Shown: piece by piece, positions 1-21,400 of the stretch
Layout: each line of letters opens with the position of its first letter
Numbering within the stretch: the stretch's first letter is position 1
Assembly: GCA_039545355.1 (NCBI GenBank)
Contig: BCJJ01000022.1
Location: 558,001-622,000, forward strand
Direction of reading: 5' to 3'
Origin: Trichosporon coremiiforme
Lineage: Eukaryota > Basidiomycota > Tremellomycetes > Trichosporonales > Trichosporonaceae
DNA length: 64,000 nucleotides
The notes under the pieces: model-generated
Told to the model about the DNA's origin: nothing
The model's database searches: none
Seen by the model: the letters and a program-made list of their open reading frames with translations, nothing else
Made by a program: the position numbers and the translations under genes

Positions 1-1934
1 CGGTTAGTGGTGGATCGATCACGCTGCAGCGGCCCCGCGCATGTCCGGACCTTCATTCCACAGCCGAACTCAGCCTCAACCCGTGGCTTCACCAGCCGGC
101 CTTGGCCGTCCCCCCAATGCGATGCCTCCGTCGTCCCTCATCCCCCTTCGCCGCTGCTGATCCGCGGATCACTTGTGTGAGTGCATGCATTCCTAGCTGT
201 TACGTTGGCCGCCGATACATCCGCGCTGCGCATGCATAAAGGAGTAACAGCCCCCGATCTGCAGAGGACTTGAAAGTGTCCGTGCTCTAGTAAAGACCCG
301 GGAGACCCGGTGTGAATGTAGTCATTGACGGGCCGGTCGGCCTCCGGCTCTCACGCGCTACATTCAAGCTGCTACCATGCTACCTTAACGCGGTACAGCG
401 GTACAGCGGTACAGCGATTGACTCAGACTCTAACCTGCTTCCGGAGCCGAGCGACGAGTCTGGCGGGGACGATCATCGGTCTACGCGGGCAACCAGTGCA
501 CCCATGTGCTAATTCCGTCTTCTCAGTCTCACATCCGAACAACATCCGGCCCGTTTCTGTCTCGTATGCCCCATGTGTCCTGCCCGGCTGCCGACGCATG
601 TCGACGCCTGCTGTGCAATTGAGCACGAGCCAAGTGTCTCTTCGGTGCATGCTCGACCTTCCTCCTCCTCGGGCTCGCTGGCCATCTGGCCACCGGGCTG
701 ATTCATCACTGACGCCGCTGACATGGCGCCTCGAAGCTGTACCACTGAGGTGCTCGCCGTCGCCGAGGTGCACATGGGTGGCACCCTAGATCCATCGCAG
801 TCGATGCTCCGTCATCCGCGCGCTCCGCGACGCACTAGGTCCTCGCTCGGAGTACCAGCTTCACGCTTTGAACGCCGTTCCGGCGATACCCTTCCATGCC
901 TCTGGTGCTCTCCACCCTTGGTGCCAGGTAACCGACGTCGATCAACAGAGATCGCAGACGGCATGACTAAGATAAAGAGAACCGATCACAACATCTGAAG
1001 CTATATCGAGCAGCGCATATCTCGCCTATCCCCCGGGCTGCCGGCGGGGGCAAGGCCTGGAGCTTCACCATCAGTCATCATCGCACTCCGGCATACCGCG
1101 CACTATGCCTAACGATAGATCCACTGTAGCCGCCTTGAGCTCGCTGAACCGCCCAGCGGCGGTCGCCGGGGGATCCCTCGTATTTCCACACTATGCGGAA
1201 CTGCTCCGCGGCGATCATTCCTCGCCACTCTCGCCAACCGTGCCCGCATACCGCTTACGACAAGGGAGATGGGGGCTGGCTGGCCGTGATTCCTCGGACT
1301 CAGGATCGGAGTGAGAAAGAGAAGAGGACCGTTGGTCGTGTTGTCGGACTTGGAGGCCCGGGCGCCGATCCGTCACCTGACTTCGAGGGGCATGTGGCAC
1401 AATGGGCACATGAGACATGATCGTCAGGAGACACAATCGAGGCTCGTCTCGACTTGTCGAGGGCGCAGTTGTCCTTCAAAGGGGCCAAAGGGGGTGGCCA
1501 CGCGGCGTTGAGCACAAGAATCTAACACATCTTGGATGCATGACGTGGAGTTCGTGGAGTCAGACGAGAATTGAGAACAGCACTCCCCGATCCTTGTCCA
1601 ACTCGTTTCCGCCAGTGCTTCACGGTTGCTACAGTGAAACAAGTGAGTTTGTTTCCTGCGTGCGATTAAATCTCAGTTGGATTGGTCGTTGCTTGCCCAG
1701 AACTCAGTCTGTTGGTTGCCAGCGTCTCTTTTGGCGATGCCCGTCCCGCTGTGAGCTACGCCCGTACGTTGAGCTCACCCTAGTATCTGAACTCCACCAA
1801 CGGACCCGTCTGGAGATGTGACCTTCGGCCCAGCAACCTGGACCAAGTCACTTGGTCGCAGAGCACGCCTCTCTGCGAAGGAAGCCAAGCGTCATGGCAC
1901 CGAGAGGGAAACACACCAGGCGCAGATCGACGTC
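1..1934. other. No recognisable gene
   Basis: No open frame here has family resemblance or a convincing exon chain. The longest frames overlap one another on both strands and look random. One short tandem repeat is visible at about 391-414 (three copies of CGGTACAG). A lone intron-like string lies near 1650-1675 (GTGAGT ending in CAG), so the array that begins at 1935 may have outlying units here. Confidence 0.6.
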
Positions 1935-4900
1935 GTGAGCTAGTCCATACTCAATCGGCTAACCTCAGGTCAATGCAAATAGACCGTCGTCAGCGTCAAC
2001 TAACTTCAGGCAGCGGGTCGTTCGCGCCTAAGCAGACCGCAGCATTCAACATCAGCACACAGCACGGCACAGCTTGTCATGCCAGCCCCCCGGCGGCTAC
2101 GGTGTTCTCCAATGTCGCGGGGATGTAAGCTGCCAAGCGACGTCGTTGAGCTGATTACCGTTGACGTCCCATGGCGGTGGCTTTGGTGCTACTTTAGACA
2201 CAGACGTAGCTGACGAGCAGAAGCTCCTCACAGCAGACAATGTCACGCCACCTCAGCCAAGTAAGCTGTCACGAGCGACACCATCAGCTAATGTCAGAAC
2301 CCGGCTTCGAACGACCAGAGCGAGGTCGAGGTGAGCTGCCACGTTCCCTGGCTAGCTGATGCGCAGACACCGTTCCGTCGTTGGAATGGCAGACCCCATC
2401 ATAATCGGTGTTCAGCTGCAAATGGCCTGTTTGAGCTGACAATCCAGTTTGGGGCTGCAACTCAATGAGTTCTAAATAGACGGCTGCGGGGCGCGGTTTA
2501 ATAGCTGAGCGTACAGATGCGTATCCCGACGTGAGTCTTCTTCAGCTGCTGCGGCTATCCGCTCGAGCTAACACGCAGGATCCAGCGTGAGTAGTTCTCT
2601 CACAGCTTGGGGTCGATGCTTCTTAGCTAACAGCAGGCATTCCTGTAGGTCTGACAACTAACCGGTTATACCACCAGCTAATGGCCGGGCCGGGTTCCAA
2701 ACATCGTGAGTTGCTCGCAGCTGTTTATGAACCAAAGCTCAGCTGACGTCCCAGTCAATCATGCTGTAAGTTCGCGCCAGGTCGCCTACTCTTCTACAAG
2801 CTGACCTCGTCAGTGTCGGTGCGTGTCTCTAGCTTCGGAGTTGTGAACCTGCAGCTGATCCTTCAGCGTCAGTTCTGGTGAGCTGCGGGGGTTTGACGAA
2901 GCTAATCAACAGCAGCCTCTTGCGCTGGAGAGCACCTTCAAGCTTTTCGGACCGTTCCCTAGCTGATAGCCTAGCCGTGGAGAGGCACCCGGCGCAAGGC
3001 AGGACGTTCGTGTGGCATCTCTTAGGCCTGCAGCCTGCAGTTGAACGGTAGGACAGCTACTTCGTCTCGGAAAGCTGATGCACCCAGACTGACACAGAGA
3101 CAGTCACGCTGACGTATGGCTGTCTTCTCCAGTACCAGCTGACATCCTCAGACCCGATGTTGGTAATTTCTCGCCAAGCTTTCAAGAGGACGACGAGCTG
3201 ACAATGCATAACCCCCAGGTCGGTTAACGGACCACCCCTCTCTTAGCTGGCCGACCGGCCAGATGGTGAGTCGCCTTCGCAGCTCCCTGGGGTCCACGTC
3301 TGAGCTGACACTTCAGGTTCGCCCTTGAGCCACGCCTCGAGTCTCGTTGGCGCACAGAGATCTAAGCCTGGAACGGACAAGTGAGTTTTTGATACAGCTC
3401 CACGGTCTGCTGGGTAGAGCTGACACTCACAGCGTCGCGAAAGTGGCGCTACGCCCAGCGCGCCCAGTGCTCCATTCACCCAGTGAGCCTTTGTTCCAGC
3501 AGGCTGCGCTGCTTCTCCCGACTCTGTCCTAGCTATCAGGTGCTCATTCTCAAGCTGACATCTCAGACCCTAACGGGGCAGTAACTGGACGTCGGCTCCC
3601 AGCTTCGGCCCCTCTCGATCGTGCGCTTCCCACACGAAGGTTCTGCTTCCAGTTGCGGTTCGTGTAGCTGACACTTCAGCGGGTCCAACCCGAACGTTTA
3701 GGCGGCACACATCTGGTAGGCAGCTCACCAACAAGCACATGAACTGACTCCAGCCCGCTTCGTGGCAGCTTCAAGCGTGAGGAATTGGCAACTTCGGTGA
3801 CTCCAGAAGTTGATATCAAGGTGAGTGACGCTCAAAGCTGTCGGGCATGCTCTTGCTCCGTAGCTAACATCCAGACTTAGCGGGGAGCGTACGTCGCAGC
3901 TGTGCATCGCTTGCAAGCCCCAGGCTGTCAGTGTGAGTGGCTGCTGAACGGGGCGAGATTCGCAGCTGACGTCTCAGGCTTGGGCTCCCCTCCACTCGAT
4001 TGTCCCTATGATCCTACAATCTCGGCGACAGGTAAGCTCGCCTACCTCCACTCGCTTGAAGCTGACCGCAAGCATCTCTGCCAGTCGCCAGAGTGAGTCG
4101 CCTGCTAGTTACGACCTGCGGTTAGCTGACATACACTCTCTCGGTGCGTGCGCGCAGTAGCTGCATACACAGTCGATGCAGCTGACACTCAGACCTCAAG
4201 CGTAGTGAGTCATACTGTAGCTGTGTCGGCGACGCTACAAAAAAGCTGACTGGCAGTTTACACAGGAGTGCGTTGGTAGCTGCTAAAGAACGATCGTCAG
4301 CTGACTTCAGCGAGGCGGGTAGTTACTTCGAGCCCCGCGAACGATCTTCGTGCGTCAGCTGCACGGTGCCGATCACACAGCTAACTGCAGTCTTCGCCGA
4401 GCTTGCTGAGACTGCATTCAGTGTGAGTCGACAGCTCAAGAGCTTTGTCTGCTAGCTGACTATCCAGACCGGCGCGGGTGAGCGTGGCAGTTGCGCGTTG
4501 GTCAGACAACTGATGATCAGCCTCACTAAGCCATGACCTCGGATCTCTGATTGTCAGGTGAGCATGCCCCCAAGCTCTGAATCTCCGGCCGCAAATGACG
4601 GCAGACCACAGCGGTATCATGAGGATCGATGTCCAAGAATGTGACCGATCGTCAGTGAGTGCCCGCCTCGGCACACCTCAGCTGCACGGACTAGATCATA
4701 GCTAACCGTCAGAGCCATCGGCCCAGCAGATGAAGTACCATCGCAAACAGTTAGGTGAGCTCTGGTACAGCGGTGAAGCTGAAACTAGGTTACTGTACCT
4801 TGTGCAAGACGGCACAGTACGTTGCCAGCTCGATATTCCTCTCCCTATGAGCTGACATCCAGCGCACACATAGGCTACAGTCTTGACACCTACAGCTAAC

Positions 4901-6951
4901 AGACAGCTCCGGAGTTAGCCCTCGGTAACACTCAGCCTTCAGCTTCGCCAGGTAATAGGCTGACATCCAGGGGGTGAGTGGCTTCCAGCTGCGCAAATGC
5001 TTCTTGTAGCTGACGTTCAGGACTGCGTGTCGACAGCTGTGAGCTGAGGTTGTCGCTAGGGGAGCTGACCGCAGACTGCCTGTTGCCCGTAGTGAGTCGC
5101 CAGCTGCCTGCCGCCCGTATAGCTGATATCCAGGTCATATTGGTGGGTCGTCTCCCAGCGGTGCCACACCGCCCGCAGCTGACAACCAGTCTGACTTTCC
5201 AGTGAGCTGCCGATTCCCCCGGCCAAAGCTTAGCTGACACTCAGGTCAGGACTTGTATGCTACACGTGTCGTCGCCGCCAGCTGACAAACAGTGCGAAAC
5301 TATGCGTCTCAGCTACATGTATCTCGCCTCCCAAAGCTGATATCCAAACCATCGTCCCAGAAGTGTGTCGTAGCTGTCGGGCTGGCGATCGTCAAGCTGA
5401 CACCCAGCACTTCTGTGCGTCGCAGCTAAGTATGGGTTCAACTTCAGCTGATTTGCCAGACTGCAAACAGTCCACCGACTGCGCCGAGTGCACATCGGTG
5501 GACAGGTCAGGCAAAGTAGGTCTTAACAGCTTGTCGGGCCGTTTCAAGCTGACCCCAGCCCGTCTGCTAGAGTCGTGAGTCGGCGTAAAGTCGGCGTAAC
5601 AGCTACAAAGCTCTCCTCTAAGCTGACCCCAGATCCGCCAAAGTATAGCTACCCAACGTTGTCCGCAGCTGATACATCGCAGTGAGCTCACTCATTGTGG
5701 AGCCAAGGTGACCCCAGGCCGATCGTGAATCTGCTATCTGTTCGACGGAGGTAGCTGACACCCAGTACCCGTCTGTAGCGTGAGTTGCGCAATTCCGCGA
5801 CAACTGACACCACAGGCCCAACTCGTGAGTCTCACCGCTCGATGATAGGCACGTCTTAGCTGACACCGCGGGTGCATCTGTTGTGAGTCCTCGACAGCTG
5901 TGAACACAAGGCCCAGCTGACCCCACAGTCCGTGAGTCACAGCTTGTCTTCTACCGCGTCGCTGATACCCAGCCAAGTCTGCGTTAAATCTACAGCTTCC
6001 GAAGCACGATACAAAAGCTGACGGTGCAGTCAGCCCAGGTGAGTCGCACGCAGCTGCACAAAGCCCGTTGAGCTGACCATCAGAGGGCCCATTGACCCGC
6101 GTACGTGCGCCTCCAGCTAACAATGCTCGACGTCCCCCCCCAACCCCGCAGCTCAAATCCCTCGTTAGTCTTTCGCAGCTGTGAGCTTTCCCTCGGTAGC
6201 TCATATCCCTGCCCTCCTGTCGGGTGTAAGAGCTACTGGCTTCGCAGCGAGGTGATTACAGACTGGCCGTGAGTTTCTCCAGCTACTCGGCGCTCGATTA
6301 TACAGCTGACAGACCAGGGACCTCGCCGCCGCGTGAATTCCCATCAGCTTTCGGTCTGGTCTCTCAAAAGCTGACCCCTCAGCTTTGTCGTCAGTCACTC
6401 TAGCTAGCTCGTATTTCATAGCTGGTGTGCCAGCCTTAGCAACCGTGTAAGTCTCTGATAGCTGTGCGACCGCACGCTTAGCTGACACCGCAGCGCTGCA
6501 GCTCGTATGTTCGACCAGCTACGACGTCCCCCACGCTACAGCTGACGTCCCAGGACTCAGGCAGAGGCACAACGTAAGTCGACAGCTGATTGTACGTGTT
6601 CTTGGAGCTGACACCCAGTGCCGTATCGGTATGTATTTGCAGCTGTGGACCAGGGGTCAGGAGCCGAAATTCAGAATGGCCTTGCCTGCCCCCCTGCCTG
6701 CGCTCGGAGCGCAGTGAGGTGTTCTCGAGTGTGATCGCTGATCCCTGCTGTGAGTCGTTTGCCAGCTCGCTGGCGTCTCCCGATAGCTGACCCCCAGCCT
6801 CTTTCGCATGTGCGGGTATGGCCGCCGAGGGATGTCTGGTGCCACCGGACGATCAGGAGCTCTACCAATTGGCGAAAGCGTATGCAAGGACTTGTCGTGA
6901 GTCACATCTAGCTGAATGCCCCTCTGTGCCAGAAGCTGACCTCAGAACCCT
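1935..6951 (+). other. Dense array of intron-like units with microexon-sized spacers
   Basis: Across about 5 kb the + strand repeats one layout: a donor (GTGAGT, GTGAGC, GTAAGT, GTGCGT), a CAGCT roughly 6-12 nt later, 15-20 variable bases, then AGCTGAC or AGCTAAC, and CAG 3-6 nt after that. By eye I count about 38 AGCTGAC and more than 20 GTGAGT. Units are about 34-60 nt and are separated by 3-56 nt of unrelated sequence. This matches the intron consensus used by the ordinary genes of this window (GTRAGT, CTRAC, CAG). Outside the consensus elements the units are not alike, so this is not a simple satellite. The strand bias is complete. The 3' part (after about 5830) contains weak donors and at least one unit whose AGCTGAC is followed by CCGCG rather than CAG. 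Best reading: a microexon gene or its decaying copy. Alternative: an amplified intron-derived (introner-like) repeat. Confidence 0.75.
4173..5574 (+). CDS. Central part of a putative microexon gene, product unknown
   Basis: Spliced exons proposed: 4173-4204, 4257-4275, 4311-4349, 4391-4422, 4468-4477, 4521-4557, 4612-4654, 4715-4754, 4789-4816, 4863-4879, 4907-4924, 4971-4973, 5021-5038, 5075-5091, 5134-5142, 5190-5201, 5245-5265, 5293-5318, 5408-5414, 5460-5515, 5559-5574. Joined, they give about 166 codons without a stop after two leading bases. The conceptual protein includes AELAETAFSTGAASL and a small cysteine and histidine-bearing stretch (GYCTLCKTAHAH). I recognise no family. Neither a start nor a final stop is assigned, because the chain becomes ambiguous on both sides. 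Weak points: two acceptors were chosen as the second of nearby AGs (4611, 4714), two introns are only 27 nt (4880-4906 with a poor GTCTTG donor, and 5266-5292), and one exon is 3 nt. The frame is evidence of coding but was found with some freedom of choice. Confidence 0.4.
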
Positions 6952-7002: not shown

Positions 7003-7057
7003 NNNNNNNNNNNNNNNNNNNNNNNNNNNNNNNNNNNNNNNNNNNNNNNNNNNNNNN
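7003..7057. other. Assembly gap (55 N)
   Basis: A run of N follows a C-rich stretch (6987-7002). It cuts off the 3' side of the intron-like array, so the end of any gene there is not visible. True gap length is unknown. Confidence 0.98.
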
Positions 7058-7146
7058 CTGGAGCTGCGTCAGTGAGCAAATCTCCCTTCTGTGGTCCCAG
7101 ATAATCCCAAATGCAGAAACCCGATGCAATGCCAATGCCAGTCTAG

Positions 7147-18417: not shown

Positions 18418-21400
18418 GCAAACTGCGCCGCGTTCCAACTATCCGTTCTCTGCGGTCCGGCGGCCGGGGGACCCCATATCGACCCCGAGCCGCCTGTTGG
18501 CTGCTGCGGGGATTGGGACCACGTGCTCTGAAGCCCGGGCGGGGGCGCGAGGCCCGGTGGCGGTCGCGGCGCGCCTCCGACGCTGCCGACGCTGCCGTAT
18601 GCCTGGTTCGGCCCGGCGTACTGCGCGGACGACCCGGCACTGCCGAACTGTCCCGAGCCGCTGCCGCTGCCGAAGCCTTGGCCGCCGAACGACTGGCCCG
18701 GAGGAGCGAACCCTTGTCCGCTGCCGGGACGGTAGCCGTACTGCTGCCCGTGGCCGTGCCCGTGGGCGCCGAAGCCTGGCGGCGCGCCCGGCCCTGGGGG
18801 CGGAGTGATGCCCGGTGGTGTGGGGCCGGGCGGTGTCAGTCCCGGCGGTCCGCGGGAGTCGCTCCACTGCCTCCCCTCCCAGGAGGGGCGTTCCCACTGT
18901 CCACTGGGACGCGCGCTGTTAGGCGCACTCTCCCACTGTCCGCTCGCCTGTCTCGATCCCACGCCGGCTGGGGCATCCCATCCCCGCTCCCACTGTCCGC
19001 TCGGGCGGGCGCTGTTCGGCGCACTCTCCCACTGCCCGCTGGCGTGCCGCGAGCCGCCCTCCCATTGCCCGCTCGCTTGGCGGGATCGCACCCCCGTGTC
19101 CCACTGTTGTGAGGGTTGGCGGGAGGTCGACTCCCACTGTCCCGGCGGTCCGGAGGCGCTCGCGCGCGCGTCCCACTGCCCGCTGTCGCGCTGCCGGGCC
19201 CGCTGCATGCCCTTCTGGCTCTCTTCGCGGGACATTGTCCAGATTGTTTGGCCGCCGCCGTCCATCCCCCCGAACAAGAGGGAGGGAGGTCGTCGGTCGC
19301 CGGGTCCTGGCGAGGGCGCGAGAGTTAACGACTGCAGCAGACCTTGCGCTGTCGTCGCTGCTGAGACGGGAGGTACGACGGGCGTGCTCGTGCTGGGGTT
19401 AGTTGAAAGTTCGACATCGTGCAACTTCTAGCCTGAAGCAGCTCAAGCTCACCTATTGCCCCATAAAATGACCTCATCGTCGTCGTCCGCCGACGCCGCA
19501 CCGACACTGATCCCGTCCGCACCCAGGCTCGCGCGCATAGCAAGGCTGACGGGGTCATCCTCCGTCTCAGCCTGGGACTGTATGTCGACCGCCTGCGCAA
19601 CCTGATTGTCGAGATTGCTGAGTGCGCGAAGTCCGACGTCCGTCTGCATGAGCAGTTTGACGTCCACGAGCAAGTCGGCGAGGCGCATAAGCTGTTCCTC
19701 GTTCGGGTGCACCTCGCCGTTGCTCGGCGGGAGTTCCTCGTCGTTACTAGCGGCGGCGCGGTGGCCCCGGAGCGGCGCGAAGCCGCGCATATCGCGGTCC
19801 TCCTCGAGCGGCTGGTCGAGCTCCGGCAACTGCGCAAGCGGGAAGACCTGCGCCAGGGCGAACATGAGCCGCTTGTACGAGCTCCAGAAGCTCGTAACAC
19901 TGCGCGCGACCTCGAGCGATGCCGGCGCCAGACGCCCGACGTACTCGATGTGGGACTTGAGCCAGCGCGACATGATGCGCAGGCTCGGTAACAGTCGCCG
20001 CAGGACTGCGGTGATGCGCTGCGCGAGCGGGACCTCTTCGTCCTCGTCTACCACTGCCGAGTCGTCCGCGTTCACGAGCGCCAGCGCCTCCTCGGCCTCC
20101 TCGGCCGCGACGACGACGAGGCTCGTGAAGATGCTCATGAGGAAGATGAGCGACAGGTTCTCTACGACGTGTCGCCGCTCGGCACCGTCGCCGGCGGTCG
20201 AGTTCGCACCCAGTCGAGCTTGCCAGTGTGACCCGATCGCCATCGCCGTCGTCTTCACAATCGTCTCGGACAGGAGCTTGCGCTCGCGCAGGAGACGGGC
20301 GAACGCAACGGTAACCTGCGAGCACAGCGCGTTGAAGTGGCTCGTTCTGCTGTCAGTTAGATCCGTCGCCCACAACTCACCCTGCTCGGATGAACAGAAT
20401 CGACACGACCGTCAGCAGGTCGCGCTTGAAGACATCCGTCTCCTCTTGGCTCTCCTGCTCAGCCGCAGCCGCCTGTTGCTCCCCGTTCTCGACAGCGCTG
20501 GCTGCATGGCGCTGCGACCGCCACTTGTCAAACACCTTCTTCAGCACCCGCTCCAGGTTCGCCTCGCCGCTCGGGAACGGTAATCGCACCTCGAGTGCGC
20601 GGAAGTAGTGGTACGTGCAGTGGAAATTATCGCCGAGGTAACCATCGATAACAGCTAGCTGGTTGAAGGCGGTGCCTGTGGGTCAGCGACGAGATGATCA
20701 GAATGCAAGCTCACCGTTGTCAGGCTGCAGCCCCCGCGCGACCTCGTAGTACATGATAGCCTTATTGAAGCGCTCTGCCGGCTCACGCCCGTTCTTGGCG
20801 GGGGCACCGTCACGCTCCTTGCGCGCCTTGTCCGAGTACTGCTCCTTGTATCGCTCGAGGTCACCTAAACATATGAGCCCCTTGTAGACGATATCGATCT
20901 TCTTGTCGAGCTCCTCCTTGCTAAGATGGGGCGCGAGGGCGGGGTCGTCTTCGGAGTCTTCCCCCGGGCCGACGGGGATGTTGACTTCGGCTAAGTACGG
21001 CGCAGTGCGGTCCTGGAGCCTGTGGAAGGTGACGATGCGCGTGATGAGCGAGTGGTAGAATGCGGCCTCCTTGACGAGAGCCTGGCGGAAGCGGCTCAGC
21101 GTCGTGCGCAGGTGGGAGAGGGCGTCTTTATTCGCTCTTGCTCCGGACCCGGGAGCGGGCAGCGTCGCCTCGATGCGCGCAACGGCATCGCGATACGCCG
21201 AGATCAGAGTGTACGTCGTGCTGATCCAGAGGAGCTCGATGCTCTGCGCCTGCGGGTGCAGCGGGTGCTGGAACAGGATGCACAAGTATGCGTTTCGTGC
21301 ACTGCGCGCATCAGCGATCGGCTCTCTCGCATTGTTACAGCTGCTGCTGTCGCTCTGCCGCCTTGCTGATGCTGCACGCTGCACTGCCAAGCAAAACATC

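Follow-up and report, generated by a model that had tools for sequence, protein, structure and literature searches.

Dozens of tiny exons whose sequence changes fast while the reading frame is kept characterize the micro-exon genes (MEGs) of schistosomes and the bicycle genes of aphids. Among the basidiomycete yeasts, Cryptococcus neoformans is reported to have an intron density of 3.35 per kb of coding sequence, with at most 42 introns in one gene, and 1,434 introns distributed over 1,197 miscellaneous RNAs (miscRNAs) (PMC3990503). Saccharomyces has protointrons, described as nonconserved and infrequently spliced, some of them in noncoding RNAs (PMC6726248), and a single functional microexon is described in Trichoderma (PMC11121469). 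The literature matches listed, from a coverage that mostly leaves out subscription journals, included no RNA gene of the microexon-array or intron-array kind from a fungus. Here we describe a candidate intron-array RNA gene in a 64,000-nucleotide stretch of Trichosporon coremiiforme (hereafter the window; contig C22, positions 558001–622000, in a 42 Mb assembly). Within it lies a dense array of intron-like units, array A, which has a collinear counterpart, array H, in the homeologous region of contig C8. We put at roughly 60% the probability that A is a noncoding RNA gene, hyper-intronised and under selection for its splicing rather than for its product. We favour this reading because the signals indicate introns, the comparison with H indicates selection, and the spacers between the introns indicate a noncoding transcript; the doubt that remains is mostly about function versus mere tolerance.

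Between 1935 and 6951 the motif AGCTGAC, expected about 0.3 times by chance (a hand calculation from rounded base frequencies), occurs 38 times on the plus strand, the count given in an earlier note on this stretch, and twice on the minus strand. GTRNGT donors there number 40 on the plus strand versus 3 on the minus strand, and the order donor, CAGCT, branch site, acceptor recurs along the array. The earlier note had placed all of these signals on one strand, which holds for AGCTGAC and the donors but not for CAGCT (57 on plus, 78 on minus), because the branch motif begins with AGCTG, whose reverse complement is CAGCT. About half of the introns contain CAGCT (27/63 in A, 39/67 in H), mostly 5–16 nucleotides (nt) into the intron. 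An intron caller, a donor–branch–acceptor model trained on A and H, found 59 introns in A at a strict setting versus 1–4 in 10 dinucleotide shuffles; a looser setting gave 66 at 1751–6945, 65 of these from 1935 onward. The density is 13 introns per kb. In a first parse the spacers were 2–142 nt long, a wider range than the 3–56 nt of the earlier note. The array, bounded by its first strong donor and its last acceptor, and its salient parts are as follows.

1935–6945, plus strand: predicted U2-type intron array (A), 59–65 introns with a median of 45 nt, spacers with a median of 16 nt.
1751–1783, plus strand: weaker candidate intron, perhaps A's first (model score 14; other introns score 10 to 26).
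2706–2754, plus strand: example unit with GTGAGT donor, CAGCT, AGCTGAC and CAG; one of two BLAST matches to the collinear part of H.
5516–5632, plus strand: two consecutive units, with a spacer of 16 nt in A versus 19 nt in H, recognisably similar.
6750–6797, plus strand: unit whose donor, CAGCT and branch site are retained in H (H 18768–18816).
1894–1934, plus strand: ATG-led open stretch beginning ATGGCACCGAGAGGG, ahead of the first donor; by eye, no counterpart was seen at the matching place in H.

The units follow the order of GT donor, branch site and AG acceptor at workable spacing, and the same signals occur in the introns of the flanking genes, a likeness to ordinary introns that had been pointed out before. 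Genome-wide, GTGAGT followed by GCTGAC is found 3,677 times versus 251 for the reversed pattern. The caller also marked 303 introns outside the arrays, a partly circular figure since the model was array-trained, and perhaps a third of them are false by the shuffle rate. The intron reading thus stands, and we regard the units of A as predicted U2-type spliceosomal introns. While CAGCT and AGCTG on both strands could suggest that A is a series of CAGCTG-like sites at which proteins bind DNA, and merely resembles introns, such a series would not account for the strand-specific donors, the acceptors, the fixed order and spacing of the signals, or their sharing with flanking-gene introns. Moreover, the other dense arrays of this genome, described below, mostly do without CAGCT, often having AGCT within the donor, and we consider the DNA-site explanation extremely improbable.

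Tandem Repeats Finder reported no array across 1935–6951, and resemblance among the units is therefore limited to their signals. Neither A nor H has self-matches at E<1e-3, and the whole of A used as a DNA query against the genome matches only itself. The introner-like amplification suggested in the earlier note finds no near-identical introns here, although other arrays show old segment duplications. Rfam gave no match in the window at gathering scores and none at E<=0.5 for A and H (L009 and L014) as unspliced sequence, and a tRNA scan of A found nothing.

The counterpart on C8 provides the evidence for selection. Nucleotide similarity between C22 and C8 ends at window position 1482 and restarts at 7097, and only scraps of 21–62 bases match in between, two of them at collinear units. 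C8 holds at this place a dense same-strand array of 69 introns, H, with which 45 of 64 A introns are in register (branch sites within 4 nt), as compared with 20.2±3.3, and at most 26, in 20 unit shuffles of H. By sequence class (alignment versus unit-shuffled H, 12 shuffles), identity between A and H was 79.0% at branch sites (shuffled 55.5±4.5), 79.8% at acceptors (49.2±5.6), 84.3% at CAGCT (55.1±6.0) and 67.1% at donors (46.3±3.0). In contrast, it was 47.0% in spacers of up to 40 nt (shuffled 42.4±2.0) and 47.8% in intron interiors (42.1±1.7), so that the short spacers are hardly conserved. Over interiors and spacers of every length the shuffled values lay at 42–44%. Where in-register introns enclosed orthologous spacers no longer than 60 nt (23 pairs), spacer identity was 50.2%, and 49.6% in interiors. 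For ordinary introns, a hand count over the 21 of 29 candidates judged genic gave 256/483 identical interior positions (53%), or 370/624 (59%) with the 8 dropped as likely false included.

As a coding control we used a Rad51-family gene of the same genome (L021:2637–4813, homeolog L037; Pfam E 1e-91), which packs some 24 introns into roughly 2 kb and is built with microexons. Compared with its own homeolog, its short exons are 84.5% and its long exons 88.2% identical, its intron interiors 45.7%, and its signals 90.6% (branch), 92.6% (acceptor) and 86.1% (donor); exon pairs of up to 60 nt (n=13) are 88.5% identical. By eye the gene is DMC1-like; coding as it is, it comes close to the arrays in intron density. 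In array A, then, the signals are retained, though not as tightly as in a coding gene, and the spacers diverge at about the pace of intron interiors. This retention bears on the proposal, made in the earlier note, of a decayed gene copy. That A and H are both pseudogenes of a dead hyper-intronised protein gene would fit the lack of a frame (below) and the damaged-looking signals of a few units (branch AGCTGGT at 6420; a weak unit at 5304–5360). A dead gene, however, would lose its signals at the same rate as the rest, and here they are 67–84% identical in spite of near-saturated spacers and interiors, retained in both copies; we judge this explanation very improbable.

More serious is the reading first proposed for this locus, a hyper-intronised microexon protein gene, which would here have to be a fast-evolving one with coding spacers changing quickly under positive selection. 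It draws on the ATG-led open stretch ahead of the first donor, on the presence of a real microexon gene, that of the Rad51 family, in the same genome, and on a lean of spacer length differences toward multiples of three. Counted by remainder modulo 3, these differences were 12/5/6 for the 23 pairs above, 13/5/7 for another pairing of 25 and 16/14/5 for an earlier pairing of 35, while the 13 pairs of the Rad51-family control gave 11/1/1. We looked for a frame. In the frame test, the best spliced frame is found by dynamic programming and compared with shuffled spacers (60 shuffles, three intron thresholds); because the setting of the first tests failed to separate the Rad51-family gene, the intron threshold was then raised and simulated genes were added. 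The cost of a forced single frame was 50.2 in A versus 53.1±11.6 in shuffles, and 41.2 versus 41.9±9.5 in H. At the first threshold 24/60 shuffles matched the real sequence in A and 30/60 in H; at the two higher thresholds 31/60 and 55/60 were as good in A, and 24/60 and 29/60 in H. A later run of 50 shuffles gave 29/50 (A) and 12/50 (H). No single reading frame or stop avoidance was thus detected by this test across the spacers of A or H. Simulated microexon genes, made from a real frame and A's introns, cost 1.0–6.9 versus shuffle means of 20–26 at the same threshold, and only 0–1 of 30 shuffles were as good in nine out of nine runs. The Rad51-family gene itself was poorly separated (18, 4 and 23 of 60 shuffles at the three thresholds; 11 of 50 in the later run), and as this short gene is not cleanly separated, the test is informative for long arrays only.

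Other comparisons also tell against a protein. A paired-codon alignment of A and H scored 523, inside the 351–550 of 6 shuffles; an earlier one, made without a control, scored 198 with 118/454 residues alike. The spliced translations of A and H had no Pfam match, and the 7,996 candidates scored against that of A included no homolog. With no frame, drifting spacers hardly more conserved than intron interiors, no protein shared between A and H, no homolog among those scored, and no counterpart of the ATG seen by eye in H, we rejected the microexon protein gene, which we now hold to be improbable, and A appears to be noncoding.

The CAGCT element recurs well beyond A. With donor GTGAGT, the pairing combinations CAGCT/GCTGAC and CAGTT/AACTGAC were found genome-wide 387 and 22 times, and the mixed combinations CAGCT/AACTGAC and CAGTT/AGCTGAC 21 and 32 times, in a slightly unmatched table where the 387 counts GCTGAC after any base and at least 3 of the 32 places also contain CAGCT. 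For the association of element and branch site the odds ratio is 12.7 (p 8e-12), and CAGTT with AGCTGAC can still pair via one G-U. This suggests that the element and the branch site form an internal stem in introns genome-wide, independent of A. Such a stem may aid intron recognition, or could delay it. In 782 called introns (false calls included), those with other branches carried their own 4-base complement in 33 of 205 cases versus 18.8 expected; at 5 bases the excess was weak (16/346 versus 11.9). We had considered CAGCT as a mark private to A and rejected this, as over the whole genome it is present in about 10% of the strong GTGAGT..GCTGAC introns (387 versus 3,677, from slightly different spacing windows), which makes it a widespread though minor element. 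AGCT at donor positions +4 to +7 (GTGAGCT) is found in 150 of 270 introns of ten other clusters, coding ones included, and in 66 of 303 outside clusters.

We chose these ten further clusters by eye among the first 100 places that each of two pattern searches over the genome listed (contigs C1–C5 and C1–C9). They comprise the Rad51-family gene, a homeologous pair that looks repeat-coding (L026 and L027) and seven without known product, of which Pfam scans covered L019, L020, L022, L023 and L024. Six of the seven (L018, L019, L020, L022, L024, L025) hold 14–49 introns at the strict setting versus 0–5 in shuffles, and 20–54 at the looser one, at 11.9–14.0 introns per kb, and are further dense arrays. 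CAGCT occurs in 0–14% of the introns of the other arrays. In the frame test, L019 and L023 may be coding (4/50 and 2/50 shuffles as good), no coding sign was seen in L018, L020, L022, L035 and L036 (14–27 of 50), and L024 (49/50) and L025 (47/50) were worse than shuffles. Each of the six arrays starts about 170–930 nt downstream of a large same-strand frame, with Pfam matches to thiolase, fungal transcription factor, Whi5-like, chromate transporter, kinase and NIPA, unlike A, whose left neighbour points away. Self-matching duplicated segments number 3 in L018, 2 in L020 and 6 in L022 (the 9 printed are 59–181 nt long and 70–81% identical), and the homeologs of L020 and L018 differ from them about threefold in unit number; these three arrays therefore gain and lose units. 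In the apparently coding pair, L026:4153–5207 and L027 (minus strand), repeated short exons separated by introns appear to encode proline/glutamate-rich repeats. At L018:9341–9433 there is a tRNA gene (Rfam) within a roughly 140-base element, copies of which, 88–99% identical, are found on many contigs, several at contig ends. In some L018 introns the branch is AGCTCAC and the donor GTGAGCT; the two make up a perfect 7-base inverted repeat, and these parts read the same on either strand.

Another explanation is that mutation and the duplication of units made introns accumulate in noncoding DNA that is transcribed, and that they were kept only because unspliced RNA would be mildly harmful, with no positive function. 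The duplicated segments and the differing unit numbers fit it, as do the splice-ready sequences reported, as protointrons, in yeast noncoding RNAs (PMC6726248). On the other hand, the order of A and H and most of their signals have persisted while the interiors came near saturation, and for this many units must have been under steady selection; we consider accumulation alone unlikely, though it deserves to be taken seriously.

Several observations weigh against a noncoding gene selected for its splicing. First, the transcript of A and its splicing are predicted from DNA alone. Second, the spacers are not entirely free: stretches of more than 40 nt between introns are 51.9% identical (some may hide missed introns), all spacers pooled in an earlier parse reached 51.9% versus 46.1% in interiors, and the 50.2% of matched spacer pairs exceeds a swapped control of 32.8±3.2, an excess that comes partly from matched lengths. 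Third, about 8 of the 25 spacer length differences would be expected to be multiples of three and 13 are, 6 of these 13 being equal lengths. Fourth, 19 of 64 A introns have no partner in register in H, and the signals shared by A and H are less conserved than those of the Rad51-family gene; per-unit selection is therefore weak or units turn over. Finally, unit number is not kept in other arrays, the homeologs of L020 and L018 holding 13 and 19 introns versus 46 and 54.

If A is nonetheless a noncoding gene maintained for its splicing, we envisage that RNA polymerase II transcribes the plus strand from the conserved intergenic block toward the DUF2340 gene. Each short intron would fold back through CAGCT–AGCTG pairing and present itself as one unit, and the spliceosome would excise the units to leave about 2 kb of spacer RNA without fixed sequence. 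Selection would then see the loading and firing of the spliceosome on nascent RNA, and not the RNA or a peptide; splicing may in this sense be A's function. Splicing would most likely act in cis, on a transcript that heads for the neighbouring gene and that it would help to carry, mark or dispose of. More tentatively, and with the odds somewhat against it, A could represent an inside-out class of RNA genes, where introns are the conserved working parts and exons mere spacers: arrays in which self-zipping introns, from about twelve to about 65 in number, lie near the densest packing that the spliceosome could service, gaining and losing units like a satellite, and selected for splicing on the nascent transcript. 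A noncoding gene maintained for its splicing would, if real, mean that selection on splicing is separable from selection on the spliced content. Two diverged copies in one yeast genome, with signals held while exons run nearly free, would offer a test bed for the limits of intron density, for splicing alone as a gene function and for the recognition of short introns as folded units.

The genome in which A lies looks hybrid, with this region present in two diverged copies, because the flanks match C8 and near-identical microexon matches elsewhere in the genome are paired on separate contigs; hybrid species are known within Trichosporon (PMC6642101), and T. coremiiforme, with subgenomes nearest to T. 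asahii, would fit. The left flank is 84% identical to C8 across 8.6 kb and the right flank 83% across about 8 kb (78% in the nearest 0.6 kb), ranging from 57 to 98% by 250-base windows. The Med14 protein of the window is 93% identical to that of Trichosporon asahii. To the left, the neighbouring gene is transcribed leftwards, away from A, from a start read by eye at about -107, and from this hand-read start it had no Pfam match. To the right lie a convergent DUF2340 gene and then a 14-3-3 gene. Two features adjoin the array.

1–1482, no strand assigned: intergenic block directly upstream of A, 75–92% identical between both copies; the match ends abruptly at 1482.
7003–7057, no strand assigned: assembly gap of 55 N after a C run, just past the last unit; it may contain A's 3' end.

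Among known systems, the meiRNA of fission yeast is a motif-array decoy RNA in which a repeated motif binds an RNA-elimination factor. It resembles A only in the way A would work, in that the repeated motif matters and other sequence is free. Schistosome MEGs and aphid bicycle genes are like A in having dozens of tiny, fast-changing exons between introns and differ in keeping a frame, none having been found in A. The Rad51-family gene of the same genome shares A's signals, microexons and density, at about 12 introns per kb, yet it is coding and its exons are 84.5–88% identical. Fungal introner-like elements are described as many introns gained, possibly by copying (PMC4457414), whereas A is without near-identical copies. 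Protointrons, as described in PMC6726248, share with A the presence of intron signals outside coding genes, but A keeps full signals between diverged copies, with 45/64 introns in register. C. neoformans, a basidiomycete yeast related to this fungus, has miscRNAs that are described as spliced and as showing no obvious capacity to code (PMC3990503); A differs from them in gathering about 65 predicted introns in one 5 kb locus, at 13 per kb of genomic DNA.

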